NCBI RefSeq assembly: GCF_000225345.1
Contig: NC_015977.1
Span: forward strand, 399,501-463,500
Length of the DNA: 64,000 bases
Direction: 5' to 3'
From: Roseburia hominis A2-183
GTDB lineage: Bacteria; Bacillota; Clostridia; Lachnospirales; Lachnospiraceae
Shown here: piece after piece, positions 20,301 to 64,000 of the stretch
Layout of the letters: each line of letters opens with the position of its first letter
Numbering within the stretch: position 1 is the first letter of the stretch
Made by a program: the position numbers and the translations under genes
The notes under the pieces: generated by a model
Seen by the model: only the letters and a program-made list of their open reading frames with translations
Told to the model about the DNA's origin: nothing
Databases searched by the model: none

Positions 20301-20655
20301 CATCGTTGCGATCAAGCAGGAGGGTAAGGTATCCTGTCATTACTGTGACAGTGTTGGTTTTACCCAGATCCCCGGATTCCTGCCGGAAAATCCGCTGAAA
20401 AATGCGGAGATGGCCGTGGAGGACGATTACGGCATGATCGACGGTATCATCAACAATGGCGCAAAAGAGCCTACGGTGGCAGAGCTGGAACAGCAGGCCC
20501 GCAGCGGTCAGTCCATTTCCCTCATGGATTTGGCTGCCGCTGCCCATCGGGAGGAAGGGGAAAAGAAAAAGTCCGTCATGGAGCAGCTGAAAAGCCAGCC
20601 CAAGGCAGAACACAAAAAGACAGCGCCCAAAAAGAGTGCGGAAAGGGAGATTTGA
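17371..20655 (+). CDS. CHC2 zinc finger - ArdC/LtrC-like - YodL - DUF4316 fusion protein
   Basis: A 1094-residue multidomain protein. Residues 1-190 are a CHC2 primase zinc finger (CCPFHDDK, FHCFGCGEDGDVIDF) related to the gene at 3634. Residues about 195-560 resemble the ArdC N-terminal and LtrC-like region (FHRYSVNNTMLIYMQKP), with a metallopeptidase-like HEIAHSKLHD. The C-terminal third carries YodL-like (IYQVSRDD...LDWL) and DUF4316-like (KNAEMAVEDDYGMIDGI) segments. An internal ATG at 17944 with AAAGGAG upstream begins exactly where stand-alone LtrC-like proteins begin (MAENKPTNRERLREITDGIE), so a shorter second product is possible. The role is probably protection or processing of incoming single-stranded DNA. 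Confidence 0.8.
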   Translation: MAENVFEAVKLSVSTREAAEFYGIKVRRNGMACCPFHDDKNPSMKVDQRFHCFGCGEDGDVIDFTAKLFDLSPKEAAEKLAQDFGLIYDSQAPPRRRYVRQKTEAQKFREDRQRCYRVLSDYYYLLKKWEADRSPRTPEEEPHPRFVEAIQKKAYVEYLLDLFLYESEEEQKAWIAEHTAEITHLERRLKIMAENKPTNRERLREITDGIEQGIKELFESEKYMRYLSVMSRFHRYSVNNTMLIYMQKPDATLVAGYNKWKDQFERHVKKGEHGITIIAPTPYKKKIEEQKLDPDTKAPILDKDGKIVTEEKEIEIPMFRPVKVFDVSQTDGKPLPELASSLSGNVPNYEAFMEALRRNAPVPITFEAMAADTDGYFSADHQKIAIRQGMSEVQTVSATVHEIAHSKLHDPKKYEMLPSWKVVQESEGGTKHDFKLDFATEKEAEQFASDMDWRYVDENQFEWRLAVEEDATAEKQAIKNRHTEEVEAESISYAVCKYFGIETGENSFGYIASWSQGKELKELRASLETINKTSGTLISDIERHYKEICKERGIDPHAKVEPETAPIEQPADAIKVSDRLPTGDLTYYVAECMEFPNLGEYHDNLSLEEAVRIYQEIPVERMNGIKGIGFELKDGSDYEGPFPILTGQTIDLDTIQAIDYYRDNPLVQKAVKELAAAMPEMEVLGADANQQEALFLIDDATYLHIQSCDSGWDYTLYDAASMKELDGGQLDMPEISRMKAVLQICDDNDLGRDSVKYAPLSMIETLQEAAYQQMQAEASQMAASSQLPEAQEQALDEYPMPDEQVSTPDMQEYGYFYDGMLPVTRERALELDAAGLTVYVLHEDNTESMVFDPQEIMDHGGIFGVDREEWEKSPQFHEKVMERQEHQQEREQAFLAQNRDCFAIYQVSRDDPQNVRFMNLDWLKSHDISIDRSNYDLIYTAPLRESGTVPEQLEKLYEQFNLQKPADFHSPSMSVSDIVAIKQEGKVSCHYCDSVGFTQIPGFLPENPLKNAEMAVEDDYGMIDGIINNGAKEPTVAELEQQARSGQSISLMDLAAAAHREEGEKKKSVMEQLKSQPKAEHKKTAPKKSAEREI

Positions 20656-26000: not shown

Positions 26001-29000
26001 TGATGTCGGATGTAGAGCAGATCGCAGCTGCTGAGACAAAGCAGACTTCCGAAGTTGCTATTTCCGATGAGGAATATGATGCAGTTCGCCGCCCAACTCC
26101 GCAAAGAACATCCTATGACCCTGCTGCCCCGGTCTATGCCGTGGGCGATACCGTGTATATCGAGGATGACGCCTATCAGATCACCGAGCTGCGGGAGGAC
26201 ACCGTACAGCTTCTGCCCACCGGGATGGTATATCCCATCTACCGGGCAGAGCGCAAAGAACAGTTCGAGCAGCTGCTTCGGGCAGACCGCCGCAATGCTT
26301 ACTATACCGAGTTTCTTCCTACTGACCCGGACAAGGCAGATCAGGACTTGCGGGATGTATTGGCTCATGGACTGATGGATGAAGCGGATAAAAAGCAGAT
26401 TTCCACGCTGCTGCAATCCGGCAGGAGCAACAGCGAGATCGCCTACTGGCTGAGCAGAGCCTATTCCGGTGAGATTGAGACACTGAATCTGGAGACCGGC
26501 GATATTGCCGATTACCGTACCACGGCACAGGGCATAGAACTGGAAGTCATGGATGCAGAGGAAAGGCGTCTGGCTATGCTGTATTTCCGCTGGGATGAGG
26601 TTGCGCCTTTGCTGCGCGGGATGTATGCCCGTCAGCAGGACGGTTTTGGACAGGAACAGTCCCAACCAGCTACCGAATCCCCGACCTTCCATTCCGAGAC
26701 CATGGCCGTCTATCCGGGCGATAAGAACAATCTGCCTTATGATGTGGTGGTGGAACGACTGCATATCGAGGAGCCGGAGCCACCAGCCCCTGTGACTGAG
26801 CCGGAGAAAACCTTTGAGGAAGTGTTGGATGAACACCCGGTTTCCATTCAGGTCAATGGCCAGTGGCAGACCTTTCCCAATGCCAAAGCTGCCGAGGAAG
26901 CATCTTATGAGGAATACAAGGCTAACCTGCGCCGCAATGCAAAAAACTTCCGCATTACAGATGAGCATTTGGGTGAGGGCGGTCCGAAAGCCAAGTTCCA
27001 GGCAAATGTCAATGCGATTCGTTTGCTGAAAGAGCTGGAAGCTGCCGGACAGCAGGCAAGCCCCGAACAGCAGGAGGTTCTTTCTCGATATGTGGGCTGG
27101 GGCGGTCTCTCTGATGCGTTTGACCCGGAGAAACCGGCATGGGCTTTAGAGTATGCCCAGCTAAAAGAACTGCTGACCCCGGAGGAATATGCCGCCGCCA
27201 GAAGCTCTACCCTCAACGCCCATTACACCAGCCCTACGGTCATTCAGGCCATCTATGAAGCGGTGGACCGTATGGGATTTGAGACCGGAAATATTCTGGA
27301 GCCGTCTATGGGTGTGGGCAATTTCTTTGGTATGCTGCCGGAGAAAATGCGAAACAGCCGTCTGTACGGCGTGGAGCTGGACCCTGTTTCCGGGCGCATC
27401 GCAAAGCAGCTCTATCCCAAGGCGGACATCACAGTAGGTGGCTTTGAGACCACCGATAGGCGTGACTTCTTTGACCTTGCCATCGGCAATGTACCTTTCG
27501 GTCAGTATCAGGTCAATGACAAAGCCTACAACAAGCTGAATTTCAGTATTCACAACTACTTTTTCGCCAAAGCACTGGACCAGGTGCGTCCCGGCGGCGT
27601 GGTGGCTTTTGTAACCTCCCGATATACTATGGACGCCAAGGATTCCACCGTGCGCCGCTATCTTGCCCAGCGTGCCGAGATGCTGGGAGCTATCCGTCTG
27701 CCTAATGACGCGTTCAAAAAGAATGCCGGTGCCGAGGTTGTATCGGACATCATCTTCCTCCAAAAACGGGACCGCCCGCTGGACATCGTGCCGGAATGGA
27801 CTCAAACCGGACAGACGGAGGACGGATTTGCCATCAACCGGTATTTTATCGACCACTCGGAAATGGTGCTGGGCAGACAGGAGCCGGTAAGCACTGCTCA
27901 TGGTATGGACTACACCGTGAACCCTATCGAGGGACTGGAGCTTTCCGACCAGCTGCATGATGCGGTGAAGTATATTCATGGCACTTATCAGGAGGCAGAG
28001 CTGCCGGAGCTGGGCGAAGGCGAAGCTATTGACACCTCCATTCCTGCCGACCCCAATGTGAAGAACTATTCCTATGCCATTGTAGACGGGCAGGTGTACT
28101 ACCGGGAAAACAGCCGTATGGTGCGCCCTGACCTCAACGCCACCGCCGAAGCCCGTGTAAAAGGTCTTGTGGGACTGCGTGATTGTGTGCAGGAACTGAT
28201 CGACCTTCAGATGGATGCAGCGGTTCCGGACAGCACCATTCGGGAGAAGCAGGCGGAACTGAACAGCCTCTATGACAGCTTTTCTTCCAAATACGGTCTC
28301 ATCAATGACCGTGCAAACCGTCTGGCCTATGCAGACGATTCTTCCTATTACCTGCTCTGTGCGTTGGAAGTCATCGACGAGGACGGAAAGCTGGAACGCA
28401 AGGCAGATATGTTCACCAAGCGGACCATCAAGCCCCATCAGGCGGTGGCTGTGGTGGATACGGCAAGTGAAGCACTGGCGGTGTCCATCTCGGAAAAAGC
28501 CTGCGTGGATATGGGCTATATGAGCCAGCTTACCGGAAAAACAAAAGAAGAACTGGCCGGAGAGCTGCAAGGCGTAATCTTCCGTGTACCGGGACAGCTG
28601 GAGAAAGACGGCACACCCCATTATGTGACTGCTGATGAATACCTCTCCGGCAATGTACGCCGCAAACTGCGTCAGGCGCAGCGGGCCGCACAGCAGGACC
28701 CGGTTTATGCAGTCAATGTGGAAGCCCTTACCGCCGCCCAGCCCAAAGACCTGGATGCGTCGGAGATCGAGGTGCGTCTGGGCGCTACCTGGATTGACAA
28801 GGAATATATCCAGCAGTTTATGTATGAGACCTTTAATACCCCGTTTTATCTCCAGCGAAGTATCGGGGTCAACTATTCGTCCTTTACCGCTGAATGGCAG
28901 ATCAAGGGGAAATCTTCTGTATCCTACAACGATGTGGCAGCTTATACCACCTACGGAACCAGCCGTGCCAATGCCTACAAGATTTTGGAGGACAGCCTGA

Positions 29001-47961: not shown

Positions 47962-49173
47962 ATGGCAAAAAAGAAAACACAGATCCCGAAGTACGGGACC
48001 ATTACATTGAAAGGAATCCAGTATTACAGAACCAGGATTACGGATGCAGATGGCAAAGAGTTGAGTTTGTATGCCGCAACTTGTGAAGAATTGTATGAGA
48101 AGCAGTTAGAGGCCCGGAAGCAGGTGGAAGAAATTATCTTTCACCGGCAGCACCCGACAGTAGCCGAGTATGGAGAGAAGTGGCTGCTGATGCAGTCGGC
48201 AAAGGTGTCTGCGTCTACACTCAGAGGTTATACGAGGGATATGACAAACTATATCATAAAACCTCTGGGAGAGATGTATATGGAAGAAGTGACCGCTGAC
48301 GATATTCGGCTGGCGCTTGTTCCATTGTCAAAGAAATCGGAAGGCTTATACAATAAGGTCAATATGCTACTCAAGTGCATTTTTTATGCGGCAGAGAGAA
48401 ACCAAATTCTTGAACACAATCCCTGTGTGGGAATATCGGGCAAGGGCGGAAAACCATCAAAAAAGAGAGAGGCATTGACAGATCAGCAGGTAGCCGTGCT
48501 TCTGGATACAGTCAAGGGGCTTCCTCCATATTTGTTTATTATGCTCGGTTTATATTCCGGTCTGCGTCGGGAAGAAATTCTTGCACTGCAATGGGATTGT
48601 GTATTTCTGGACGAGGATACACCTTATCTATCGGTGAGGCGGGCATGGCGTACAGAGCATAACAGACCCGTGATTTCTACGGTGCTAAAGACTCCGGCGG
48701 CAAAAAGGGATATTCCGATACCGAAGTGTTTGGTGGATTGTCTGAGAGAAACGAAAGAAAATTCCATATCAGATTATGTGATTGCTGACAGTAAAGGGGA
48801 GCCGCTGGCTGCTTCGCAGTTTCAAAGAGTGTGGCAGTATGTCGTTGTCCGATCCACTAAGCCCCGGAACTATTATAAGTATGTGAATGGGCAGAGCATC
48901 AAATACGCGGTTACCCCAACGCTGGGCATGACCCAGAAAAATCAACCCAAAATCAGATATACGCTGGACTTTGATGTAACCCCGCATCAGCTACGGCACA
49001 CTTACATTACCAATCTTCTCTATGCTGGTGTTGATCCAAAGACCGTCCAATACCTTGCCGGACACGAAAACAGCAAAACAACTATGGACATCTATGCAAA
49101 AGTGAAGTACAATAAACCAGAGGAGCTGTTTGGGGTAGTAAATGGTGCGTTTCATCAGGCTATTGCTGAATGA
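47962..49173 (+). CDS. int: Tyrosine integrase 2 (paralogue of integrase 1)
   Basis: A 403-residue recombinase, clearly related to integrase 1 along its length. It shares PKYGTITLKGIQYYRTRI, GLYSGLRREEILALQWD, HQLRHTYITNLLYAGVDPKT and the nucleophile Tyr in MDIYAKVKYNKPEE. All catalytic residues are present, so it looks functional. ATG 47962 has AAAGGA upstream. No excisionase lies between it and the first copy. Either a second element's integrase has been left here, or the two act together or on different sites. Confidence 0.92.
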   Translation: MAKKKTQIPKYGTITLKGIQYYRTRITDADGKELSLYAATCEELYEKQLEARKQVEEIIFHRQHPTVAEYGEKWLLMQSAKVSASTLRGYTRDMTNYIIKPLGEMYMEEVTADDIRLALVPLSKKSEGLYNKVNMLLKCIFYAAERNQILEHNPCVGISGKGGKPSKKREALTDQQVAVLLDTVKGLPPYLFIMLGLYSGLRREEILALQWDCVFLDEDTPYLSVRRAWRTEHNRPVISTVLKTPAAKRDIPIPKCLVDCLRETKENSISDYVIADSKGEPLAASQFQRVWQYVVVRSTKPRNYYKYVNGQSIKYAVTPTLGMTQKNQPKIRYTLDFDVTPHQLRHTYITNLLYAGVDPKTVQYLAGHENSKTTMDIYAKVKYNKPEELFGVVNGAFHQAIAE

Positions 49174-49504
49174 AAAAAGGCCGTTTTTTATGGTCCGCAC
49201 ACCGGATAACTGAGAGGCAGAAAGCCGGAAAAGCCCGGAGTATCAAGGAAAAACAGCTCAAAAACTCGCGCAATACGGTCTCAAAGCAGCTCGTCGCGCT
49301 CCGCAGTTCTCAAAGAGATAATCTTTCAAGAACGAAGATATCAAGAAAAGCCCATTTTTCAAGGGTTACAGAAGTTGAGGAATGCCGTCAGATGTGCTGG
49401 AATTTACATCGAATGCAACACATATGCAGCAGGTATGCAACAAAGATATTGATATGTATAGGACATTTTTCAGTAGAGATACTGGGGAGTGTCCTTTTCT
49501 TTGT
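49174..49504. other. Junction interval between the conjugative element and the next mobilizable element
   Basis: This 331-base stretch lacks a gene. A hairpin with GGACA (49461-49465), CAGT/ACTG (49471-49484) and TGTCC (49490-49494), followed by TTTTCTTTG, looks like a terminator for the integrase. Short repeats of ATGCA(A/G)CA lie at 49417-49442. The right end of the conjugative element and the left end of the element carrying the integrase at 49505 should both be here, but no core direct repeat could be fixed by eye. Confidence 0.45.
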
Positions 49505-50560
49505 TTAAATCTTATTAATCGCATCTACAAGCTCCTTTATATCAAAGTGGGTATACACTTTCTCTGTGAGTGTCATTGCACCTGAGTGCCCCGCAATCTT
49601 TTTGATAATCGTCTGGTTAATACCAGCTTCTGCTAACATTGAGATGCATGTATGTCTGCAGCAGTGAGGTGTACGATTAATACCTAGCTGTTCCATCAAT
49701 GGCTTGAAATAGCTATCGTAGTAGTTTCGGTATTCAAAATGTTTTCCAACTTCTGTATGAAGTAAATATTCACATTCAGGGCAGGATTCATACCAAGCTT
49801 TGTAATATGGCAGAACTTTGTCTGCTATTGGAACTTTTCTGATACCATTTTCTGTTTTACTACAGATAACATCAAAATACTGTTCATTCAGATGAACATT
49901 CTCTTTCTTCAAATCAAGCATTTCAGAGATACGGACTCCGCTATATAGGAGCATCAATACTATCTGATAATATTTGTCTTCCTTTTGTTCCCAGATAATC
50001 TCAATTTCATTTTTCTCAAACTTGTTTCTATCGTATTTGTTAGGGTTACGATCCTTGTATTGAACAATATCAACGAAGCTTGAAGAATCTTTGTTGCAAA
50101 TATCATTTTTCAAAGCATAATCAAATAGCTGGTTAAACAGGACTTTGATTTTCTTGAGAGTAGGAAAATTCTTACCGCAGGTATCAATAACAGTCTGTAA
50201 ATCAACTAATTTAATATCCTTGAAAATTTTGTTGTAAAGGGGTTCACAGGATTTATAGGATGCTGTGTATCCTTTTACATTAGATTCAGATATAGCAGGA
50301 AACTTACGCTTTGACCATTCTTCATAGACATCTGAAAATGTCATCTTAGCAGCCTTGGTATCAAATGGATTATTATTGTAATCAGCAAGCATTTGCAAGC
50401 CATCAGCTCTGGTAGCTGCATATCCAATTGTAATCATATCCTGAACCTGTTTGTCTTTCGCCTCATCGTAGTGCCAGCCTACAGTTTTTCTCACTTGATA
50501 AGGTTTTCTTCTTTTGCCGGAAAGTTTTACAACGCTTCCGTATCCGTTGGGTAACTTCAT
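49505..50560 (-). CDS. int: Tyrosine integrase of the second mobilizable element
   Basis: A 351-residue minus-strand recombinase, distinct from the two before it. The arm-binding start is KLPNGYGSVVKLSGKRRKPY. Catalytic residues: Arg in YSGVRISEMLDL, H-x-x-R in HCCRHTCISML, His in AGHSG, and Tyr in YTHFDI. I choose the second ATG (50560), which has AAAGGA at normal distance; the first ATG (50569) overlaps that site. It lies at the left edge of its element, as usual for integrase genes next to their attachment site. Confidence 0.9.
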   Translation of the reverse strand: MKLPNGYGSVVKLSGKRRKPYQVRKTVGWHYDEAKDKQVQDMITIGYAATRADGLQMLADYNNNPFDTKAAKMTFSDVYEEWSKRKFPAISESNVKGYTASYKSCEPLYNKIFKDIKLVDLQTVIDTCGKNFPTLKKIKVLFNQLFDYALKNDICNKDSSSFVDIVQYKDRNPNKYDRNKFEKNEIEIIWEQKEDKYYQIVLMLLYSGVRISEMLDLKKENVHLNEQYFDVICSKTENGIRKVPIADKVLPYYKAWYESCPECEYLLHTEVGKHFEYRNYYDSYFKPLMEQLGINRTPHCCRHTCISMLAEAGINQTIIKKIAGHSGAMTLTEKVYTHFDIKELVDAINKI

Positions 50561-50617
50561 AAGCACCATCCTTTCGCTATTTACTAGAAAGCTGATAGCA
50601 AACGGATAAAATGATTG

Positions 50618-51437: not shown

Positions 51438-51451
51438 CAAGGAGGATGAAT

Positions 51452-52447
51452 ATGGTTAAAAAACAGAATGTTGAACTGAAACTTATTCATATGGAGGATG
51501 TGGTTTCAAAGGAGGTGGAATGGCTATGGTATCCATATATACCATACGGAAAGATAACAATTATTGAAGGAGATCCGGGAGAAGGAAAGACAACTTTGGT
51601 TCTCAAGTTAGCGGCAGCTCTTAGCAGGGGCTTGCCGCTCCCCTGTGATGATGATAAAGAATATGAACCTATTCATATCATTTATCAGACCGCAGAAGAT
51701 GGAATTGAAGATACGATTAAGCCTAGATTAGAAAAGGCAGGAGCAGATTGTTCCATGATTCGGGTTATTGATGAGACAGATAAGGAATTATCAATGACAG
51801 ATGATAGGCTGGAGCAGGCAATAATCGAGACTGGGGCAAGGTTAATCATTCTTGATCCGATTCAGGCATATATCGGAGCTACAGTTGATATGCACAGAGC
51901 AAATGAAATAAGACCGGTGCTAAAGCATCTTGGAATAATAGCAGAAAAGCATAATTGTGCAATTATTCTTATTGGTCATATGAATAAGGCATCTGGCAGC
52001 AAATCAACATACAGAGGACTTGGTTCTATTGATATACAGGCAACTGCCAGAAGTGTTCTGCTGGTGGCAAGGCTCCGTGATAAACCTAATATAAGAATAA
52101 TGGCACATGATAAATCTTCATTAGCTCCGGCAGGGGATGCGATAGGATTTGAAATGACTGAGGATAATGGAATGGTATGCATAGGACCATATGACATTAC
52201 CATAGATGAGCTGTTATCCGGCAATGAAGGAAGAGGAAAAAAGAAGCTCGACATTGCGGAGAATTTTATCAAAGAATACTTTGGTTCAAACAAGGTAATT
52301 CCATCTAATGAAATAATGATGGAAGCTGCAAAGAGGAGCATTAAGAGAAATACTCTTTTATCGGCAAAGAAAAAGCTGGGTATAACATCAGATAAAGAAA
52401 AGGCAGAAGATGGAACAATTTACTGGACTTGGGTAATGCCGGAATAA
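51452..52447 (+). CDS. RepA/AAA_25-type RecA-like ATPase
   Basis: A 331-residue hexameric-helicase-like ATPase. Walker A is IIEGDPGEGKTTLVLKLA near residue 35, Walker B is RLIILDPIQAYIG near 135, and sensor-like ILIGHMNKASG and STYRGLGSIDIQATARS follow. It belongs with plasmid RepA (RSF1010-like) and AAA_25 proteins that unwind DNA for replication. ATG 51452 is used because ATG 51446 overlaps the GGAGG. It probably replicates the excised element together with the MobV relaxase. Confidence 0.87.
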   Translation: MVKKQNVELKLIHMEDVVSKEVEWLWYPYIPYGKITIIEGDPGEGKTTLVLKLAAALSRGLPLPCDDDKEYEPIHIIYQTAEDGIEDTIKPRLEKAGADCSMIRVIDETDKELSMTDDRLEQAIIETGARLIILDPIQAYIGATVDMHRANEIRPVLKHLGIIAEKHNCAIILIGHMNKASGSKSTYRGLGSIDIQATARSVLLVARLRDKPNIRIMAHDKSSLAPAGDAIGFEMTEDNGMVCIGPYDITIDELLSGNEGRGKKKLDIAENFIKEYFGSNKVIPSNEIMMEAAKRSIKRNTLLSAKKKLGITSDKEKAEDGTIYWTWVMPE

Positions 52448-52661: not shown

Positions 52662-52704
52662 TAGATTTAACAGATAAAAAGGTAGTACAGATAAGGAGAT
52701 GCGA

Positions 52705-54090
52705 ATGGGAAATATTTCATATACAGCTCATGTGAGCAATAAGAAAAGTGCCATTACATCGAAATCTAAGCTTGCAGCTGTTGCAAAGCATAACCTGAGA
52801 AAATACAAATCATCAGATTATAGCAAAGACAACATCTGCATCATATATGGTACATCAAATCTGATTGATGATGTGAAAACAGTATATCATAAAGAATTCG
52901 ATGAGGCATTAGAAGAATATAATAAAAAGCAGACACGACAAGACCGGAAAATCGAAGATTATTTTGAACATGTGGCAGGTAAGGAACAGGATATGGCAGT
53001 TGAAATAATAATTCAAATAGGCGACAGGGAGTTCTGGAAGCAATTTGATGATATAAAGTCATATATGAAATTGTCATATCAGATAATACTGGACGAGCTT
53101 AGAAAGAGGCTTCCACAGTTTGTAGTTGCAAATGCTGTGGTTCATCTTGATGAGGACAGTCCGCATATGCACATTGTCGGAGTTCCTGTGGCAGATGGAT
53201 ATAAGAAAGGTCTTAGCAAGCAGGTGTCAAAACGTAAGGTATTTACTAAAGATGTGTTATCACGAGTGCTGCAGGATGAGCTTCGAGAGGTGGCGAATAA
53301 AGAAGTGAATGACTGGTTTGGGAAACAGATAAAAGAAAAGTCGAAAGGTCGAAATCATGATTTATCTGTTGCAGAGTATAAGGTAGCTCAGGAGACAAAG
53401 CATTTGACACAATTACAAGAGCAGGTGGAAGAATCGGATAGGGCAGTTAAGGCAAATAAAGCTATTGAAAAAGAATATACGGATAAAAAAGAGAAACTGG
53501 AGTCTGATATTTCATGCCTGGAAAGTATGCGGCGGATTAGTAAGTCGCTATCAGAAATGGATAGTAGAGAATCAAAACAGATATCAATGGAACTCGATGA
53601 AAAAAGATCTGAACTTCAATCGGTAAATGAAGAGCTGGCAAATGCTATTGAAAAAGCAGAAGATGCAGCGAAATTGCTTGATAGAATCAAGAATTTTGTA
53701 TCGTCATTCAGATTATTTGCACCTACGATAGAAGAATATGCTAATCAGGTAGAAGCGGATAAGACAATAGAGGCAGGAAATTCATTCCGTGGAATATTGA
53801 ATGAGCTGGGCAAGCTGCTTGGGGCATTCAAGGAACTGATTAAAGAAGGCTTATGCTGGTTTCCAAGACTGATGATATGGAAAACTTCTAGAGGAGAAGT
53901 GGCACCGGTATTCATAGAGAAAAGCGATGGCTATTCATATTCATTGTATGGATATATGAATGTGGGCACTAAGGAATATTACTCAAAAGAGGGTGTTCAA
54001 TGGGAGATTACGGCAGGTAATCGTACTGGTACAGTTGAACAGATGGATGTTATGTTGAGGCAATGGCAAGAGATTTGCAGGAGATATTGA
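52705..54090 (+). CDS. mobV: MobV family relaxase (Mob_Pre)
   Basis: A 461-residue plasmid-recombination/mobilization relaxase. The N-terminal half has the diagnostic HLDEDSPHMHIVGVPV motif (near residue 146-160) and a basic KHNLRKY start region. The C-terminal half is a long coiled coil (about 235-330) followed by a C-terminal domain. ATG 52705 follows AAGGAG; ATG 52699 would overlap it. It would nick the palindromic region directly upstream. It is the third relaxase type in this window, after MobA/L and MobP. Confidence 0.92.
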   Translation: MGNISYTAHVSNKKSAITSKSKLAAVAKHNLRKYKSSDYSKDNICIIYGTSNLIDDVKTVYHKEFDEALEEYNKKQTRQDRKIEDYFEHVAGKEQDMAVEIIIQIGDREFWKQFDDIKSYMKLSYQIILDELRKRLPQFVVANAVVHLDEDSPHMHIVGVPVADGYKKGLSKQVSKRKVFTKDVLSRVLQDELREVANKEVNDWFGKQIKEKSKGRNHDLSVAEYKVAQETKHLTQLQEQVEESDRAVKANKAIEKEYTDKKEKLESDISCLESMRRISKSLSEMDSRESKQISMELDEKRSELQSVNEELANAIEKAEDAAKLLDRIKNFVSSFRLFAPTIEEYANQVEADKTIEAGNSFRGILNELGKLLGAFKELIKEGLCWFPRLMIWKTSRGEVAPVFIEKSDGYSYSLYGYMNVGTKEYYSKEGVQWEITAGNRTGTVEQMDVMLRQWQEICRRY

Positions 54091-54355: not shown

Positions 54356-55213
54356 ATGAATAGTGAAAAAAATAATATAGATATGAGTAATGTGATCAAC
54401 AAATTGTTTGAAGGCGATTGCTTAGAGTATATGAAAAAAATACCAGCTGGAAGTGTGGATATGATTTTGTGTGATTTACCATATGGTATGACACAAAATA
54501 AATGGGATAGTTATATTCCTTTAGATGAGTTATGGAAACAATATAATCGAATAATAAAACCCAATGGGGCAATTGTTTTAACATCTAATGGAGTTTTTAC
54601 TGCAAAGTTGATTTTGAGCCAACCTAATATTTATAAGTATAAGTGGGTATGGGAAAAATCAAAGCCAACTAATTTTTTGAATGCTAAAAAGCAACCATTA
54701 AGAAAACATGAAGATGTTTGCGTTTTTTATAAAAAACAGCCAACATATCATCCTCAAATGACAAAGGGAGAACCATATGATAAAGGAATAAGAAAAAATC
54801 AGCTTAGTGGTAATTATGGAGACTTTGAACCAGTGCATGTAGCAAGTGATGGAGACCGTTATCCTACAGATGTTATTTATATTAAAACAGCAGAATCAGA
54901 AGGTGCAGTTCTTCATCCAACACAGAAGCCTATAGAACTGGGCAGATATATGGTAAGGACATATACAAATCCAGGGGATATAGTACTTGATAATACTTTT
55001 GGTAGCGGATCATTTTTAGTGGCAGCATTGATGGAAGGGCGAAATTTTATTGGAATTGAAAAGAATGAAGATGTTGCATTGTTTAAAAAAGAAGAAATAG
55101 ATTATATTGATGTAGCAAAAAGAAGATTATTCTTAGCATGGGAAGGATTAGAAAAAAAAACTCGTAAATATATAAAAGAGGAAAATCTTATAGCAGAATT
55201 TAAAGAAAGATGA
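54356..55213 (+). CDS. Site-specific DNA methyltransferase (beta-type N6/N4)
   Basis: A 285-residue DNA amino-methyltransferase. Motif IV (DLPYG, near residue 40, the DPPY variant) comes before the AdoMet-binding motif I-like region (VLDNTFGSGSFLVAALMEGR, near 210), the order of beta-class enzymes. The middle part (FLNAKKQPLRKHEDVCVFYK, ending GRYMVRTYTNPGD) is typical of M.HinfI/CcrM-like enzymes. GGAG precedes ATG 54356. Its stop overlaps the start of the nuclease-methylase gene (ATGA), so the two form a restriction-modification operon. It may protect host DNA at the same sites. Confidence 0.9.
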   Translation: MNSEKNNIDMSNVINKLFEGDCLEYMKKIPAGSVDMILCDLPYGMTQNKWDSYIPLDELWKQYNRIIKPNGAIVLTSNGVFTAKLILSQPNIYKYKWVWEKSKPTNFLNAKKQPLRKHEDVCVFYKKQPTYHPQMTKGEPYDKGIRKNQLSGNYGDFEPVHVASDGDRYPTDVIYIKTAESEGAVLHPTQKPIELGRYMVRTYTNPGDIVLDNTFGSGSFLVAALMEGRNFIGIEKNEDVALFKKEEIDYIDVAKRRLFLAWEGLEKKTRKYIKEENLIAEFKER

Positions 55214-56751
55214 AGGTGAAATGTATGGGGACAATTATCAGAAGAAATGAAAGAAGTTGGGCAATCGTAATTATTTCAGAGATAAAAGTAATGCTGAATG
55301 GCTTGGGGTTAAAGATTAAGAGTGCAGGTGGAGAAAGTACGCTTTCTGTAAATAAGAAAAGTATGTTTCCAGACGTTTTGTTGTACGAAGATGAGGCACA
55401 AACTAAAATACTGCAAGGCTGGGAACTTAAAATGCCGGATGTATTGATTACAGATGAAGCATTGATTGCAGATGCGACAAGAAAGGCAAAAGCATTAGGC
55501 TTGAACAGTTTTGTAATATGGAATTTTACCTATGGAAAATTATATATACAGAACAAACAAGGCTTTTTCGAGGAAGCCAAAGTATGGGATGGAACAAGTC
55601 ATATTAAATCAAGAGAAGATGTTACTACATACAAAGCAGAGTGGTTACCTATTATAAAAGAAATTGTAATGACAGTAAATGAGTATCTTGTTAATGGAAG
55701 AATTGTAACATCGTCTATTGTAAATACAATATCGGATGGATTAATGACAGAATTGATTCAGCGGAATAAAGAGTTAGTAGCTGAAAATATTATGATTGAG
55801 TCTAGCAAGAATATGCAGATGGAACGCAGACTAAAGGTTTGGTGGAATGCATTTCATGAAGAATACGATAAAGATGAGAATAATATGTATTCGGCATATG
55901 CTAAGTCAGTGTTGTTAAATTGGACAAATCGAGTTATGTTTGCTAATGCAATTAAAAAGTATCATAATTGTGCATATGCCATAAAAGATATTGATTATAC
56001 AACATCTCCTAATGATGGAAATAATATTATTGAACATATAGTCGAACAAGGAGATTTTTATAATGTATTTAAGCCGTTGGAATTTAATGAGGTAATACCA
56101 GAAGATACATGGATTGATATTGTTGATTATAATCAATTTTTAATTGAGAATAACATTGAAAAAATAGAGCAAGGAGTATTGCAAGATATACTCGAAAAGA
56201 CCGTAAATACTGCAAAGAGAGAGATTCGTGGACAATATGCGACACCATATCGTTTGGCAGATATTTTGTGTCAGATTACTGTGCAAGATTGGAACAAGGA
56301 TTGTGCTGATTTGTGTGCTGGTACAGGTACGATTGCAAAAGCAATTATTAATAATAAAGCCCAAAGAATACATAGGGCAGATAAAGCGTTTATGACAACT
56401 TGGATGTCAGATAAGTATGCATATCCATTACAGATTGCTAATATTGCGGTTACAGATATTCATGCATTAAATATACCGATTAATATGTTTACAACGGATA
56501 TATTTGAGGTAGAGACAGGAGATAAGATTAAAATAAAAAATCCAATAGATGGTAGTGATATAGAAGAAATCATTCCCCAATTTGGAACTATTGTATCAAA
56601 TTTGCCTTTTGTAGAATACAATAAAGTCGCTGACGATGAGCAGGAATATATTGCTCAATGGAGAGAAAAGATAACAAATAGTACTGGTATTAAATTTACA
56701 AGAAAAACGGATTTATATAATTATATACCATTTAAATTATATGAGTTATTG
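55210..56751 (+). pseudogene. 5' part of an N6-adenine methylase/nuclease gene, split by IS66
   Basis: Codons 1-514 of an interrupted gene; the frame runs 15 bases into the IS and stops at 56766. Residues about 15-110 look like a PD-(D/E)xK-type nuclease (KSMFPDVLLYED, then QGWELKMPD). AdoMet motif I is ADLCAGTGTIAKAI near 375, and the catalytic SNLPFVEY (NPPY variant) is near 460. Joining to 59731 restores one open frame of 915 residues (KLYELL then EKNGKLGIIISNSW). This suggests a type IIG-like restriction-modification enzyme. A truncated methylase could still be made. Confidence 0.85.
56744..56751. repeat. Left copy of the IS66 target duplication
   Basis: AGTTATTG directly before the left end of the IS. 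The identical 8 bases follow the right end at 59723-59730. An 8-base duplication is characteristic of IS66-family insertion. Confidence 0.95.
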
Positions 56752-56934
56752 GTAAGCGATGAATAACATACCGTTCCAAATTTAATTGAAGATTTGGGAT
56801 AATACAGTCAATAAACAGTAAACGACTACTTTATCTATTTTCAGATCTGGATGCGGACGTATCACTCTTCTTTTCTTAAGCAAAGGTAGCCGTTTACGGT
56901 GTTTAACTACTTTAGCTAACAGGAGGAGCAGCTT

Positions 56935-57321
56935 ATGCGTAATAAGAGAAGAACAGACGAAGAATGGCTGTCATTAATTCAGCAATGTCGCAGCAGTGGA
57001 TTTTCTGACCGTGTCTGGTGTGAGCAGAATGATATCTCTATCAATACGTTTTATAATACTGTCACAAGGCTGAGAAAGAAATCATGTATGATTCCGGAGA
57101 CAGACAGGCTAATCGTGGATGCCACACATGAAATCGTACCACTTTCCATTACAGAAGAATCGCATATACCGATATCGAATCCAGTCAGACTGCTGTCAAC
57201 AGATGCAACATCAGAGGGCGAAGCACTGACAGTTATCATAAACGGCTGTAAAGTTGCAATCAATAATCATGCAGGCAGGGATGTGATCTATCATACGATA
57301 TCTGCCCTGCGGAAACTTTGA
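56935..57321 (+). CDS. tnpA: IS66 TnpA accessory protein
   Basis: A 128-residue protein with a helix-turn-helix start (RRTDEEWLSLIQQCRSSGFS, VWCEQNDISINTFYNTVTRL), typical of the IS66 TnpA/OrfA protein. The C-terminus holds the conserved LTVIINGCKVAI strand. GGAGGAG precedes ATG 56935. Its stop overlaps the TTG start of tnpB. It is required with TnpB for full transposition in IS66 elements such as IS679. Confidence 0.92.
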   Translation: MRNKRRTDEEWLSLIQQCRSSGFSDRVWCEQNDISINTFYNTVTRLRKKSCMIPETDRLIVDATHEIVPLSITEESHIPISNPVRLLSTDATSEGEALTVIINGCKVAINNHAGRDVIYHTISALRKL

Positions 57322-57671
57322 TCGGTGATCTGTCCAGAGTACAGAAAATCTATCTGGTTACAGGAAGGACTGATATGAGAAAATCCTTTGACGGACTCAT
57401 GGCAGTCATCCGTGACAATTTCCAGATGGATCCGTTCTCCAATGCGGTCTTTCTGTTCTGTGGACGCAAAAAGAATACGATGAAAGCCCTCTATTTTGAC
57501 CGGGATGGATTTGTACTCCTGCAGAAGCGCCTGGACAATGGAAAATTCCAATGGCCACGCAATGCTTCAGAAGTCAGACCTCTGACAAGGCAGGAATTCC
57601 GCTGGCTGATGGAAGGACTTTCCATTGACCAGCCGAAAGCGATACAGCCTGCGAAAGACAGGGATTACTGA
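57318..57671 (+). CDS. tnpB: IS66 TnpB accessory protein
   Basis: A 117-residue protein of the IS66 Orf2/TnpB family (KIYLVTGRTDMRKSFDGLMA; FLFCGRKKNTMKALYFDRDG; LLQKRLDNGKFQWPR; LTRQEFRWLMEGL). It begins at TTG 57318, inside the tnpA stop codon, so it depends on coupling. It is not related to the IS200/605 TnpB nucleases. A 287-base stretch without a gene separates it from tnpC. Confidence 0.95.
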   Translation: MIGDLSRVQKIYLVTGRTDMRKSFDGLMAVIRDNFQMDPFSNAVFLFCGRKKNTMKALYFDRDGFVLLQKRLDNGKFQWPRNASEVRPLTRQEFRWLMEGLSIDQPKAIQPAKDRDY

Positions 57672-57958
57672 TTTGTGCAATATGTAGATTTTGAAAAATT
57701 TTTCTACAGCCGGAGCAGGCTGTTGACGGAAGATATCCACAGATGTGAAATCATGGGGTGCGTTGTCCGGGGATAGTTGAGCATGACATCATCATGATGT
57801 GCATAACTTTACGGAAAATCCCGGAAACTGGCTGATTTTGAGAAAAAAAGGAGCTATCTGGCTTTCGGCATAATGCCAGTCTGATTTTGGACGGCATTTG
57901 CAACCATGCCTTCCTTTTCGTACAATAAAGGTAACGAAAAAAGAGGGAGGGATTCACC

Positions 57959-59653
57959 GTGGATTCAAAGGGACAGGACATACTTTTTAACAGTGAGATG
58001 AATCAGAAGGACCTTATGATCCAGATGCTTTCTGAACGGTTAGATGAAAAAGACGAAACCATCACAGAACTGAAGGAAACCATCAATGACCTGAAAGATA
58101 CAATTGCCGGTCTCAGGGAAACACTGGATGAATTCCAGCGGAAACTCTTTGGTACAGGCAGTGAGAAGACAAAACAGGATAAGAAAACGGAAGAAACTGT
58201 GACAACAATCGTCAAAAGCCACAAACGGACAACACGCAAAGCGAAAGCGACACGTGAAGACCAATATGGAAATCTTCCGATCCATAAGGAAGTCATCCCC
58301 CTGCTGGAAGAAGATAAGTATTGTCCTTATTGTAATTCCAAGATGGAGTATGTGACGGAAATGTTTGTCCGTGAAGAACTACGGATCACCCCGGCAAAGG
58401 TGGAACGAATCCACTATTATCAGGAGAAATGGCAGTGCCCGGAATGCAGAAAAGATGGTGACGGGACATTTGCTGAATCCAAGATACCTACAGCATTGAT
58501 TCCACACAGCCCGGCTTCCCCATCCATGGTCGCATATGTTGCAATGGAAAAGATCGGCATGGCAATGCCTTACTATCGTCAGGAATTTCTGATGAACCAG
58601 CTGGGATTTACCCTGCCACGGGAAACCATGGCGAACTGGATCATTTATACGGCAGAAAACTATTTCTATCTGATCTATGATCGGCTGCATGAAGAACTTT
58701 TAAAGCGGGACCTGGTACATGCAGATGAGACAACATGTCAGGTGCTGCGGGAAAAGGGACGTACGGCGGAACAGACCTCTTATATGTGGTTATATACAAC
58801 CGGAAATGATGGTCTTACACCAATTGTCCTTTATGATTACCAGCCAAGCCGGAAAGGATCCTGTGTGCAGGAATTTCTGGAAGGATTCCATGGAATGGTA
58901 CAGTGTGACGGATATCAGGGTTACAACAGGCTTGAAGATGTCATACTGGTCTGCTGCCTTGCACATGCAAGACGTAAGTTCTTTGAAGCAGTCCCGGCAG
59001 CCAGACGTAAAAAGTTGAAACTTCTGGATGTTAACTCTGATGAAGCGATCGAGGATACCGGTATTCCGGATGAAGAGAAGCTGGAACAGCTGCTCCCGGC
59101 AGAAATTGGACTGCTGTATTGCAATAAGCTCTTCTACCTGGAGCGCACATTAAAAGAACTGGAGGCAGAAGAACGAAAACAACAAAGAACCATTCTGGAA
59201 CAGCCTGTATGGGAACAGTTCTGGAACTGGCTTGGCACACTGCATCCAACTGGCGGAAGCAAGCTTGGGAAAGCGGTGAACTATGCCCAAAATCATCATG
59301 ATACCTTGATGAACTATATGATAGATGGCCGGTGTGAAATTTCAAACAACCGTGCGGAACGGAAAGCCAAAAGTTATGCCGTTGGGCGGAAAGCCTTCCT
59401 GTTCCATACATCAGAAGCTGGAGCTGGGGCAAGTGCGGTAATGTACAGCATTGTGGAAACAGCAAAAGCAAACAATCTGAATATTTTCCAATATCTCTAT
59501 ATGGTACTGCTGTATATGCCGGATTATATGAACTCGTCCGCAGGTATAGAACAGCTGATGCCATGGAGTGAATTTATCAAAGAGCAGTGTTCGGGGATCA
59601 TTGATGTGGAATCCAATGTCCCGGAAAACAGAATTCCCCTGCCATGTAGATAG
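57959..59653 (+). CDS. tnpC: IS66 transposase TnpC
   Basis: A 564-residue DDE transposase. It has an N-terminal leucine-rich coiled coil (about 15-65), a zinc-binding region (CPYCNSKMEYV, CPECRKDG), and the catalytic core with Asp in HADETTCQVL, Asp in VQCDGYQGYNRL and Glu in EISNNRAERKAKSYAVGRKA. The C-terminal tail follows the usual IS66 form. It begins at GTG 57959 after GGGAGGG. The frame is complete, so the element may be active. Confidence 0.96.
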   Translation: MDSKGQDILFNSEMNQKDLMIQMLSERLDEKDETITELKETINDLKDTIAGLRETLDEFQRKLFGTGSEKTKQDKKTEETVTTIVKSHKRTTRKAKATREDQYGNLPIHKEVIPLLEEDKYCPYCNSKMEYVTEMFVREELRITPAKVERIHYYQEKWQCPECRKDGDGTFAESKIPTALIPHSPASPSMVAYVAMEKIGMAMPYYRQEFLMNQLGFTLPRETMANWIIYTAENYFYLIYDRLHEELLKRDLVHADETTCQVLREKGRTAEQTSYMWLYTTGNDGLTPIVLYDYQPSRKGSCVQEFLEGFHGMVQCDGYQGYNRLEDVILVCCLAHARRKFFEAVPAARRKKLKLLDVNSDEAIEDTGIPDEEKLEQLLPAEIGLLYCNKLFYLERTLKELEAEERKQQRTILEQPVWEQFWNWLGTLHPTGGSKLGKAVNYAQNHHDTLMNYMIDGRCEISNNRAERKAKSYAVGRKAFLFHTSEAGAGASAVMYSIVETAKANNLNIFQYLYMVLLYMPDYMNSSAGIEQLMPWSEFIKEQCSGIIDVESNVPENRIPLPCR

Positions 59654-59722
59654 CAGGGAAAACCTAAAGTAAATGGTAGTCGTTTACTGTTTTGGGTAGG
59701 CGGTGTGTTATTCATCGCTTAC

Positions 59723-60936
59723 AGTTATTGGAAAAGAACGGAAAACTTGGGATTATTATTTCAAACTCTTGGTTAGGAACAGATATAGGAAAAAATTTTT
59801 TCGAAGCATTGCAGTATTATTACATTATCGAATCGGTTCTTATAAGCAATTGCAAGAGATGGTTTAATAATGCGGATGTTATTGGAACTATACTTATTTT
59901 AAGAAAAAAAGAAATTAGTATTCCAGATAAAACAAAGCGGATTAGTTTTTGGTTAACTAATAAGGATATAAATACAATCGAGGAGGAGGATAAAGAAACA
60001 TTAATTAATAGTATTGTTCTTCATCAAGTTATTGATGAATCAGTTGCAACTATGAAAGAATATTCACTTAGTGATATTGATAATATTATGCAGTATGGAA
60101 TTTCATTGAATGCTTTATTCCATAATATTTCGTGGATTAAAGAAATACAGGAATATATTGAACCAATTACCAAAGAATTAAGTATGATTAGAGGAGAGCG
60201 TACAGGGCAAAATAAAGTCTTTTATATAAATGGTGAAACATCAATAGCAGATAAATTTTTATATCCAATGTTGAAGTCATCGAGAAATATAAAAAAATAT
60301 TCGGCTTCTCCAAATATGAAGGCATTTTGCTGTAATAAGACAATTGAACAGTTAAAAGAAGATGGAGAAGAAGGAACACTGAAATGGATTCGCAAATTCT
60401 CAAATGATAAGTATGAACCATTAGCCAAAAGTATTAACTATTCACCATGGTATCAAATGCCATCAATTAATAGAGCAGATTTAGTTACTTCGGAAAATCC
60501 TGATAAAAGACTTTTTATCGCAGAATTAAATGAAAGTGTGATAGTTGATCAAAGGCTAATTGCGATGAAATATAAAGATTCTGTAGCTAATAAAGAACTG
60601 GTTTTCGCTTTGCTTAATTCTATATATGGTATGTTTGCAATAGAAGCAAATGGATTTGGTAGAGGGCAAGGTGTTTTAGATATAAGTAAAACAGGGTTTC
60701 AAAAAATATGTATGATTAATCCAGAGTTGATTTCAAAGGAAGATGCAGCAGAGATAATAGCATTGTTTTCAAAAATTAAGAATCGTAATGTCATGGAAAT
60801 TGAAGATGAATTAATGAATGCAGATAGACAAGCATTTGACAAAAAGGTGCTTCAGTCAATAGGACATGAAGAACTGTATGATTGTATTAAGGAATCATTA
60901 CTTTCAATGCAACATACAAGACATTGTGTGAAATGA
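59723..60936 (+). pseudogene. 3' part of the IS66-split methylase/nuclease gene
   Basis: Starts with the right copy of the target duplication (59723-59730) and continues the methylase frame as EKNGKLGIIISNSWLGTDIG, the last methylase motifs. A target-recognition-like region follows (WYQMPSINRADLV, NSIYGMFAIEANGFGRGQG, and a C-terminal helix FDKKVLQSIGHEEL). 401 codons remain to the stop at 60936. An artificial frame begins within the IS at 59692, but no start signal belongs to this gene. The gene fragment is otherwise undamaged, which fits a recent event. Confidence 0.85.
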
Positions 60937-61038
60937 TTGTATATATGAATATTAATAATATGGAGAATTGTAAAAATTGTATTTTATTGATTTATTCTAT
61001 GGAAGCTAGTGAATATGACAAATGAAAGAAGGAATGTA

Positions 61039-61863
61039 ATGGAAAATTCAATTTGTAAAATAGTATATTTTGATGAAGATTCAGTAACCGATTATGTACA
61101 GATTATTGCTGGAGGTGCATTAGAGAAGACAACACAGTTATTAAAAGAAACAGATAAAAATATAAATACGGATGCTTCGGTTTCTGGTAAAGCGGGAATA
61201 AGTGGTGTTTTTAAGGCTTTATTGGGATTAGAAGCTCAAGCATCTGCAGATGCATCAATGGGAATTTCTTTAAATACAAATAAAATGGCAAAAAATATTG
61301 TTAAAAACACTATTTTAACTGATTTCTTGGGAATTTTGAATGATGAAAAACAAAATAGAAAAGGCAAAATATCACAAGGAAGTATAAAGAAATTTGAAGG
61401 ATACACTATATCAGTAGAAAAGGATTCGTTATCATATATTGTTATGGTGTCGCCATACTTATCAATGTTAAAAGGTGGAGCAAGCGTTCCGGCAGGTGAA
61501 TTTGATATAGCAATAGAGAAGTTGGATAATGCGTTAAAGTCAGCAAAAGGATATTATGAATTTGTAGGAACTAAAGGGAAAAGTAAAGTTGTGCTACGAT
61601 TTAATATCAATTCTCTAAAAAATAACTATAAAATTAATGATTTGTTAAAAATGAACCTAAGTATATATGCAATAAAAGTTGGGACAACAACATTATCACA
61701 ATTAGATGTAAATAAAGAGTTAGATATTGATTTTTATAGTAGACCTAAGGATAATCCAGATTATACTTCTTCTGAAAAGAAAACATCTGATGATGATACA
61801 GATAAAAATAGAAAACTTGATGTTTATGATGTTTTATTAGCGGGAGTTGAGACGAATGATTGA
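61039..61863 (+). CDS. DUF6414-like protein, first gene of a three-gene cargo operon
   Basis: A 274-residue protein that I tentatively place in the DUF6414 family from its start CKIVYFDEDSVTDYVQIIAGG. A glycine/alanine-rich segment (residues about 45-75) might insert into membranes, and a C-terminal acidic linker holds SSEKKTSDDDTDKNR. I use ATG 61039, with AAGGA upstream; GTG 61009 would add ten residues. Its stop overlaps the ATPase start, so the proteins are made together. It may act as a sensor or effector controlled by the ATPase; this is inference. Confidence 0.65.
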   Translation: MENSICKIVYFDEDSVTDYVQIIAGGALEKTTQLLKETDKNINTDASVSGKAGISGVFKALLGLEAQASADASMGISLNTNKMAKNIVKNTILTDFLGILNDEKQNRKGKISQGSIKKFEGYTISVEKDSLSYIVMVSPYLSMLKGGASVPAGEFDIAIEKLDNALKSAKGYYEFVGTKGKSKVVLRFNINSLKNNYKINDLLKMNLSIYAIKVGTTTLSQLDVNKELDIDFYSRPKDNPDYTSSEKKTSDDDTDKNRKLDVYDVLLAGVETND

Positions 61864-63010
61864 TGAAGTAATTGTTTTTACAGGCTCTAAAAGAGATTTT
61901 AATAGTTTGTTACAGGAAAGAATAGACACAGAAAATGACGAAGTTGTTTCTTTTATGGAATTAATACAACATTATAATGCTAGAATTCATCCAACAGAAT
62001 CTGGAGTGAAGGAAATATTTCTGAAAAAAAAGATAGGCGCAAATTGTTTGATATGTAAGGCGGACGATTTTGGTTCGGTATTAGAACATACTTTATTGAA
62101 TTTTACTAATATAATAAGTTTGAATTATGATGTTGAAAAATTGTTTGTACATAATCCTCCCAAAAAGGTTCTGGAAAATCTACAATCAGAATTTGGAGAT
62201 GAAATCGAATATTGTAAATCAGAATACGCTAAATTAGATATTCCACGTATTAAGAGAATCTATAATGATTTGAATAAGAATATATTGGGGCAGGAAAAAT
62301 GCAAGATTGAAATAATTAGTGGTTTATATAGATTGACAAAAGAAAAAAGTCAAAAGCCAGCCGTTTTTATGTTATATGGACCATCTGGAGTTGGCAAAAC
62401 AGAAACGGCAAAATGTATTAGTGAATCTTTGGGTGGAGCGTTATTAAGAATTCAATTTTCTATGATGCAGACTGGTGAAGCATATAATTATGTATTTGGA
62501 TCGGAACATTCAAAAGCAAGTTTCGCACGTGATATGATGGGGAGGGAGTCAAATTTAATTTTAATAGATGAGTTTGATAAGGTTAATCCCAATTTCTATA
62601 ATGCATTTTATGAATTATTTGATGAAGGGAAGTATGTAGATACTAATTATGAAGTGGATCTGAAAAATTCTATTTTTATATGTACCTGTAACTTTATGAG
62701 TGAAAATGAAATAAAAAAGATTTTGGGACCTGCTATGTATTCAAGAATAGGAAAGTGTATTGAATATGATGAATTACAGAAAGAGCAGAAGATAAAAATT
62801 ATTAATAATTGGTATGATGAAATACTGGAAATTTTAGATGATAATGAAAGGCAAGTTATAAAGGAAACAGATATATTAAAATGGTTTCAAGATAATGAAG
62901 AACGATATGATAATATACGTTTGTTGAAAAGCAAAATGGAACAGGCAATATATGAAAAATTAGCAACTGTTTTTGTTATAAAAAAGAGCGGAGGAGAAGA
63001 TGATATTTAA
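61856..63010 (+). CDS. Clp-type (AAA_2) AAA+ ATPase
   Basis: A 384-residue protein. The N-terminal 140 residues are unlike known Clp N-domains. The AAA+ module has Walker A YGPSGVGKTETAK (near 175), Walker B LILIDEFDKVNPN (near 233), sensor 1 IFICTCNF (near 277) and an arginine finger in AMYSRIGKCIEYDE (near 300). It resembles the second ATPase domain of ClpA/ClpB, but alone. ATG 61856 overlaps the previous stop. A single Clp-like module coupled with a DUF6414-like and a membrane protein suggests remodelling of a membrane or signal complex. Confidence 0.85.
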   Translation: MIDEVIVFTGSKRDFNSLLQERIDTENDEVVSFMELIQHYNARIHPTESGVKEIFLKKKIGANCLICKADDFGSVLEHTLLNFTNIISLNYDVEKLFVHNPPKKVLENLQSEFGDEIEYCKSEYAKLDIPRIKRIYNDLNKNILGQEKCKIEIISGLYRLTKEKSQKPAVFMLYGPSGVGKTETAKCISESLGGALLRIQFSMMQTGEAYNYVFGSEHSKASFARDMMGRESNLILIDEFDKVNPNFYNAFYELFDEGKYVDTNYEVDLKNSIFICTCNFMSENEIKKILGPAMYSRIGKCIEYDELQKEQKIKIINNWYDEILEILDDNERQVIKETDILKWFQDNEERYDNIRLLKSKMEQAIYEKLATVFVIKKSGGEDDI

Positions 63011-63770
63011 AAAAAATCAAAGTAAAAGGTTTCATATTACTTCAATTATTATAGGCGTATTACTTGTAACAGTGGGTACAATTATATATTCATTATTATA
63101 TAAAAATAAAGTAGAAGGGTTTTCTTACGAAAATATTACGTATATGACTGCCTGTATTGAAGTTATAATGCTTGGAATAGTATTAGTACTAATTAATTTT
63201 GAGAATAATCTACACGGAAAATTAGTGCTGGTTATAACAGGTTTTCTAATAGCGGGTTTTATATTTAATAAATCATTTAGATTTGGAATAATCTTGTTTG
63301 TGGGAACAATGTTTGCATATTTTATAACTATGAGATTTAAAAATATTTTTTCGACAGTAGTTACTATGTCAGTCTGTGCTACCATTTTTTTGGTGCTAGC
63401 GATCTTTGCTTTGAAGTTGGTAGATGAAAACTATGGCATTTTAGTATTGTATTGTATGTTTTCTTTATTTATAGTAGTCTATCGAATATTAGGAAAAATA
63501 ATTAATCAATGGTTTATTAATAAAATGTTGGGGTTTGAAGAAGAGAGCAAAACCTATGATGATGAACAACTTAAAAATCAAATCTTATTGATATATATGC
63601 TGATATTTGTTTGTCTAAATGTGTGGCTATATCAAGAGAAAATTGATAGTGAAACTTGGAACTTGATAAACAATAGTTTCTTGACAGGGTTAGCAATTAT
63701 CCAGATGGATTGGAAAAAAATAGTATTTTATTTTAGTAAAACTTCAAATGTAACTGAGAAAGAAAGTTAA
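63000..63770 (+). CDS. Six- to seven-helix membrane protein of the AAA+ operon
   Basis: A 256-residue integral membrane protein with hydrophobic segments near residues 12-32, 45-65, 70-88, 92-110, 115-138, 145-165 and 195-212. A charged loop (EEESKTYDDEQLKN) lies before the last. No family is recognised. It overlaps the ATPase gene by 11 bases, so translation is coupled. A membrane effector (pore or depolarizer) would be the usual partner of a sensor-ATPase pair in defence systems, but no motif proves this. Confidence 0.7.
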   Translation: MIFKKNQSKRFHITSIIIGVLLVTVGTIIYSLLYKNKVEGFSYENITYMTACIEVIMLGIVLVLINFENNLHGKLVLVITGFLIAGFIFNKSFRFGIILFVGTMFAYFITMRFKNIFSTVVTMSVCATIFLVLAIFALKLVDENYGILVLYCMFSLFIVVYRILGKIINQWFINKMLGFEEESKTYDDEQLKNQILLIYMLIFVCLNVWLYQEKIDSETWNLINNSFLTGLAIIQMDWKKIVFYFSKTSNVTEKES

Positions 63771-63792
63771 TTCTATGTAATCAGAGGGTCAC

Positions 63793-63812
63793 AGTCCCTC
63801 TACTGAGGGACT
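63793..63812 (+). terminator. Perfect hairpin downstream of the three-gene operon
   Basis: AGTCCCTC (63793-63800) pairs with GAGGGACT (63805-63812) around TACT. No T-run follows on either strand. It could be a weak terminator or part of an attachment region. Confidence 0.4.
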
Positions 63813-63889
63813 AATCGCCTATCGAATAGGGTAATACCAGCATTATGATAACAAGAAAAGAATATAGGTGCAATATATTTATGAAATAT

Positions 63890-64000
63890 TTAGAAACACC
63901 AATCCTCATCCATAGCATCAGCCCATGCCTGTAACTCACCATCAAGAGCTAGTGCAGCATATTTGAGTGGTTCATCAATTGCAAGATTATCAATTAGCCT
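63890..64000 (-). CDS. DUF6061-like protein, C-terminal part (start outside window)
   Basis: Reading the minus strand from the right edge gives 36 codons and a stop at 63890-63892. The residues LIDNLAIDEPLKYAALALDG, then WADAMDEDWCF, match the core of the 678-908 protein (LAIDEPLEYARLYLDG). It is therefore a paralogue whose first half lies beyond the window. It is convergent to the membrane-protein gene. Confidence 0.75.
   Translation of the reverse strand, partial: RLIDNLAIDEPLKYAALALDGELQAWADAMDEDWCF

Follow-up and report, generated by a model that had tools for sequence, protein, structure and literature searches.

Towards the right-hand end of the window, by which we mean the whole 64,000-nucleotide stretch of Roseburia hominis A2-183 DNA that was analysed, three open reading frames on the forward strand end in stop codons at 61863, 63010 and 63770, with a stop/start overlap of 8 bp (61856-61863) between the first two, dolA and dolB, and of 11 bp (63000-63010) between dolB and the third, which we call gene 3 (Table 1). 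An earlier note on this DNA had described three compact, overlapping genes here and had called all of them AT-rich; our reading agrees on both counts, with GC contents of 29.5% for dolA, 29.0% for dolB and 26.5% for gene 3, compared with 43-46% between 36 and 50 kb of the window. The earlier note's extent for the first gene held at its end (61863) but less well at its start, which had been placed at the GTG at 61009: the ATG at 61039 is the likelier start, because AAAGAAGG sits just upstream of it. Judged by eye, plausible ribosome-binding sites precede all three genes (AAAGAAGG for dolA, GGGAG for dolB and GGAGGAG for gene 3), the last of these occupying 62990-62996 and ending 3 bases 5' of the gene 3 ATG. 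No terminator-like site was found in 60800-64000, a weak result as shuffled sequences average 0.6 such sites, and a promoter scan was uninformative (25 found vs. 21.7 expected).

Table 1. Features of the dolA-dolB-gene 3 cassette and of the surrounding element, in window coordinates
Feature	Coordinates	Strand	Evidence or remark
16-bp repeat AGTTCTCAAAGAGATA, left copy	49305..49320	+	exact match
Tyrosine integrase, near the element's left end	49505..50569	-	PF00589, E 2.2e-21
AAA_25 ATPase of the carrier	51446..52447	+	PF13481, E 3.3e-29
MobV-type relaxase	52699..54090	+	PF01076 Mob_Pre, E 5.2e-16; NF041497 MobV, E 1.6e-09, below the curated cut-off
DNA (N4/N6) methyltransferase	54356..55213	+	PF01555, E 6.7e-27; PADLOC MTase_II, E 1.1e-69
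Type IIG restriction-methyltransferase, piece 1	55210..56766	+	PADLOC PDLC03606, E 7.8e-129, model 7-517 of 935
IS66-type insertion sequence, three ORFs	56935..59653	+	PF05717 TnpB_IS66, E 1.1e-38; PF03050 DDE_Tnp_IS66, E 3.1e-78
Type IIG restriction-methyltransferase, piece 2	59692..60936	+	PADLOC PDLC03606, E 1.6e-100, model 513-931 of 935
dolA, DUF6414 protein, 274 aa	61039..61863	+	PADLOC DolA, PF19952; GTG at 61009 is an in-frame alternative start upstream
dolB, single-module Clp/HSP100-type AAA+ ATPase, 384 aa	61856..63010	+	PADLOC DolB; PDB sequence matches
gene 3, polytopic membrane protein, 256 aa	63000..63770	+	seven hydrophobic segments; no known family

The carrier element and its restriction genes

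A search of the complete 3.59 Mb genome gave three exact matches to the 16-bp repeat AGTTCTCAAAGAGATA (reversed control, 0); the two right-hand copies lie beyond the right end of the window, with starts 269 and 1129 bases from it (64269 and 65129 on the window scale). The copies flank the tyrosine integrase, an HTH regulator, the AAA_25 ATPase (which we take to be RepA-like), the MobV-type relaxase, the restriction genes and the three-gene cassette, and the most plausible reading of the region is a mobilizable element of about 15 kb that has integrated here and carries the cassette as cargo. Similar sequences flank both right-hand copies, as though another small unit, of about 860 bp, were placed at the end of the element.

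That the cassette is mobile-element cargo beside restriction genes had been proposed in the earlier note, and rightly so; the restriction pair upstream consists of the methyltransferase gene and the IS66-split type IIG gene. The restriction-methyltransferase gene is not uninterrupted: the IS66 genes lie between two ORFs that match successive parts of the same model, and the gene therefore probably no longer yields a single working protein. The first IS66 ORF (56935-57321) had no Pfam match at E 0.01 and was assigned by position. Elsewhere in the window, we also observed a 2929-aa ORF (23069-31858) that matches SNF2/ResIII helicase over residues 2062-2256 and sits in an apparent conjugative element together with a TraG P-loop protein (9177-11645), an ArdC-N/YodL protein (17371-20655) and an integrase (47962-49173).

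Identity, pairing and sequence features of DolA and DolB

The earlier note could name no defence system that fitted these genes; genes 1 and 2, however, match both components of Dodola, a published two-gene anti-phage system whose original description is reportedly that of Millman and others in 2022. Gene 1 aligns over nearly its full length with the PADLOC model for DolA (PDLC03837, E 2.8e-83, residues 2-271 of 274 on model positions 2-258 of 258) and matches Pfam DUF6414 (PF19952, E 3.5e-47), a family matched by 14/14 members of our DolA alignment, while gene 2, a lone ClpB-like AAA+ ATPase, likewise aligns over nearly its full length with the model for DolB (PDLC03838, E 4e-130, residues 4-373 on model positions 3-371 of 375). 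The two genes are adjacent and overlapping in the order dolA then dolB, and, as a further likeness to Dodola, the cassette adjoins restriction-modification genes on a mobile element; the difference is the extra polytopic membrane-protein gene that overlaps the end of dolB. On these grounds genes 1 and 2 are almost certainly Dodola, and the anti-phage role suggested in the earlier note would be right by virtue of family membership. The second-best PADLOC family for gene 2 was the candidate PDC-M37 (PDC-M37B, E 6.6e-31), a match much weaker than that of DolB; a Bacillus cereus survey gives one Dodola/PDC-M37 pair among duplicates (PMC11811056).

To examine how steadily the two genes occur together, we compiled 29 DolB loci, comprising 13 from named genome contigs (L006-L018; a 14th match, L019, with 25% identity over part of the query, was left out), 7 found among the 391 genomes of a class sample (DolB E < 1e-60, the next match being at 1.1e-37), 2 found among the 398 genomes of a phylum sample and 7 plasmid loci (7 of the 40 matches listed, the matching records numbering 2076). 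Some genomes belong to both the class and the phylum sample, which means that the two counts are not additive, and the 29 loci are not all independent, as sampled genomes may overlap the named contigs and two loci (L068 and L085) look near-identical. DolA lies directly upstream of DolB in 26/29 loci, in the same order as here: 13/13 of the named contigs, 6/7 of the class sample, 2/2 of the phylum sample and, among the plasmid matches listed, 5/7. The three unpaired copies are one cut by the contig start (L072) and two plasmid copies (L075 and L077) preceded by an IS6-type transposase. The co-occurrence check that the earlier note had put forward thus gave a steady result for the first two genes, and dolA and dolB belong together, with known exceptions. 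At E < 1e-60 DolB is sparse, being found in 8 of the 391 class-sample genomes (own included) and 3 of the 398 phylum-sample genomes, and at E 1e-60 it was found in 0/14 well-known genomes used as a control. The DolB profile gave no confirmed match in viral contigs, and a DolA search of phage records gave one match (32.5% identity), located in a 5.1 kb record without annotation.

When 12 carrier proteins besides DolA and DolB were compared with 20 of the 29 loci (L006-L018 and L066-L072, with flanks of at most about 7.6 kb; L085, L086 and the plasmids left out), none matched at E 1e-5. Two proteins of about 225 aa near Dodola in different genomes (L018:8625-9305 and L069:7635-8306) are partly alike by eye and match nothing in Pfam or PADLOC. 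On plasmid pGTC3 of Enterococcus faecalis, a 338-aa protein with six hydrophobic segments (L073:1927-2943) is encoded upstream of dolA; it matches neither gene 3 nor any family.

DolB has one AAA+ module, which resembles the second module of Clp proteins from about residue 123 onwards and matched the second module of ClpC and ClpB among PDB sequences; we take its GPSGVGKT to be the Walker A motif and its LILIDE the Walker B motif, both placed by eye. The earlier note had described a Clp module without protease or N-domain, of which the single AAA+ module stands, but about 120 residues precede it and are common to 14 aligned DolB proteins. In ClpB and ClpC, the second module grips its substrate with a GYVG pore loop. 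This string is absent from the DolB studied here and from 29/29 related DolB proteins, whereas the presumed ClpC and ClpB of the same genome both carry it at the corresponding site, with SPPGYVGHEDGG of the presumed ClpC standing opposite SEHSKAS of DolB across a 5-residue gap in the alignment. A conserved FG-x-EH-x-K stretch of DolB might serve as pore loop instead. DolB thus shares module sequence and Walker motifs with the HSP100 proteins, and differs from them in having a single module, a front part of its own, no GYVG and no protease gene in its operon. The lack of GYVG in the 29 relatives examined hints at remodelling or switching, and not at classical threading, a point that could be of use in work on the Dodola mechanism. 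For DolA, the PDB profile search returned an engineered protein (E 0.0066) and a chitinase (E 1.2), which we regard as noise.

In the literature, Dodola is described as a two-gene system that acts against phage SPP1, and in the same text it is one of four systems with minimal effect on the phages assayed there (PMC11514479). A 2025 paper reports broad protection against streptococcal phages, gives the mechanism and the abortive phenotype as 'Unknown', and describes a growth delay from chromosomal Dodola that was removed by knockout (PMC12322248); such a delay would fit an effector that burdens the cell. In a metagenome survey, many MAGs had Dodola genes that were solitary or incomplete (PMC10924106), so pairing may be less strict than in our 29 loci. 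In PMC11514479, DolA is initially given as a protein of unknown function and DolB as ClpB-like, but the structural text assigns the Clp matches to DolA; the two names may be swapped in that section. A literature search for DUF6414 found no paper.

Gene 3 and its relatives

Gene 3 encodes a protein in which a Kyte-Doolittle script found seven hydrophobic segments. Its best family matches are regarded as noise (Pfam E 0.022, NCBIfam E 0.053, PHROGs E 0.085), its profile had 0 matches to PDB sequences, and no PADLOC model matched gene 3 or either of its two relatives. The earlier note had cast this protein as a third component and membrane effector, a proposal that fared poorly in the loci examined, as gene 3 shows no co-occurrence with dolA-dolB there. 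The 29 Dodola loci yielded no gene 3 relative, and in 0/29 does a polytopic protein (at least three hydrophobic segments) start fewer than 500 bases after dolB, with only 332 and 530 bases of sequence after dolB in two of them (L070 and L017). In the closest relative (L018, whose DolB is 77% identical), the protein encoded next after dolB has 240 aa and lacks hydrophobic segments. L014 has, at a distance of 805 bases downstream of dolB and on its strand, a 254-aa protein with five hydrophobic segments that does not match gene 3.

Beyond the Dodola loci, we found full-length relatives of gene 3 besides that of its own genome in one of the 391 class-sample genomes (L060; 30-31% identical, E 1.3e-30), in one of the 398 phylum-sample genomes (L083; E 6.5e-11 with a two-sequence profile) and in none of the 299 family-sample genomes. 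Searches of 72,556 plasmid records and 50,697 phage records gave no match, the L060 protein found nothing among plasmids, and viral contigs gave none in scans that used short peptide patterns and reach close relatives only. These two relatives both lie on short contig stretches: at L060, the 854 bases ahead of the relative hold an opposite-strand gene and no dolB adjoins, and at L083 the 382 bases back to the contig end have no DolB match. Genome G226 of the class sample has no DolB at E 1e-60 (best 6.1e-31, in a Clp-sized frame), and the three phylum-sample genomes with DolB do not include G929, the phylum samples of the gene 3 and DolB searches looking the same as judged by their handles.

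Several weaker candidates were set aside. A match of the L060 protein to TM2 (E 0.0054) was below cut-off; eight weak class-sample matches to gene 3 (E 1.2e-4 to 0.006) were partial, four of the eight with internal stops, and the contexts of five of them (L061-L065) included none like this operon; one weak partial family-sample match (L084) was dismissed likewise.

The tight dolB/gene 3 overlap suggests co-expression in this genome, and gene 3 is probably co-expressed with dolA-dolB through translational coupling. Its status as a third subunit is not supported by conservation, as far as the compared sequences go, and it is very probably a passenger or an independent cargo gene. It may nevertheless matter in this lineage, with an 11-bp overlap and a strong ribosome-binding site such as a real partner would have.

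Alternative readings and a possible mechanism

A new three-gene system can be rejected, as genes 1 and 2 are assigned to Dodola and no co-occurrence of gene 3 with them was seen in the loci examined. In a three-component Dodola variant, gene 3 would have been recruited in this lineage as a third subunit, either anchoring the DolA-DolB ring at the membrane or permeabilising the membrane as effector. Such a variant would account for the overlap with dolB, for the GGAGGAG so close to the gene 3 ATG, for a GC content similarly low to that of its neighbours (26.5 vs. 29%) and for the lack of a terminator-like site in the region, but neither a gene 3 relative nor a nearby polytopic protein follows dolB in any of the 29 loci, the two full-length relatives of gene 3 do not adjoin dolB, and Dodola is described as two genes in PMC11514479. 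We therefore consider this reading improbable; if it were true, a cytosolic two-gene system would here have been turned into a membrane-gated one.

Somewhat less unlikely, though still doubtful, is that gene 3 is a stand-alone defence or superinfection-exclusion protein housed in the same cargo region. Its family is a rare and patchy one of membrane proteins of about 260 aa, the cargo region here also holds restriction and Dodola genes, and both relatives lie, by eye, beside what we take to be transposase-like sequences (a gene at L060, fragments near the contig end at L083); against this, the lack of PADLOC matches extends to gene 3 and both relatives, and a reading of the neighbours of L060 and L083 by eye revealed no recognisable defence gene. 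That DolB is a paralogue of housekeeping Clp chaperones in a non-defensive operon seems very improbable indeed. DolB is 25-30% similar to two Clp-type proteins of the same genome, but its match to the DolB model (E 4e-130) far exceeds those to a phage ATP-dependent protease family (5.8e-23) and to ClpA (1.8e-18), its distribution is sparse, and DolA stands upstream of it wherever that side is intact. The reading we prefer, and hold to be probable, is that dolA-dolB is a Dodola pair carried as cargo of the element, and that its operon has captured an unrelated gene for a membrane protein.

For the Dodola pair itself we propose, tentatively, the following scheme. DolB would form a Clp-like AAA+ ring that spends ATP on holding or remodelling DolA, and not on threading proteins for degradation; we favour holding or remodelling because DolB has no GYVG and no second module and the operon has no protease. 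Phage infection would shift the state of DolB such that DolA is released or activated, and DolA would then stop phage multiplication, possibly at the cell's expense. Gene 3 would in this scheme be a passenger or an independent membrane-acting cargo gene, and not the effector of Dodola. That a DolB ring keeps hold of DolA or remodels it and lets it go upon infection, without being a threading unfoldase, is a possibility to which we give rather less than even weight, and a protective activity of this particular copy is predicted from its family membership.

Collectively, these results place the locus within an established defence system and avoid a false claim of novelty, and the locus offers a natural setting in which to ask if the action of Dodola is altered when a membrane protein is added to it.
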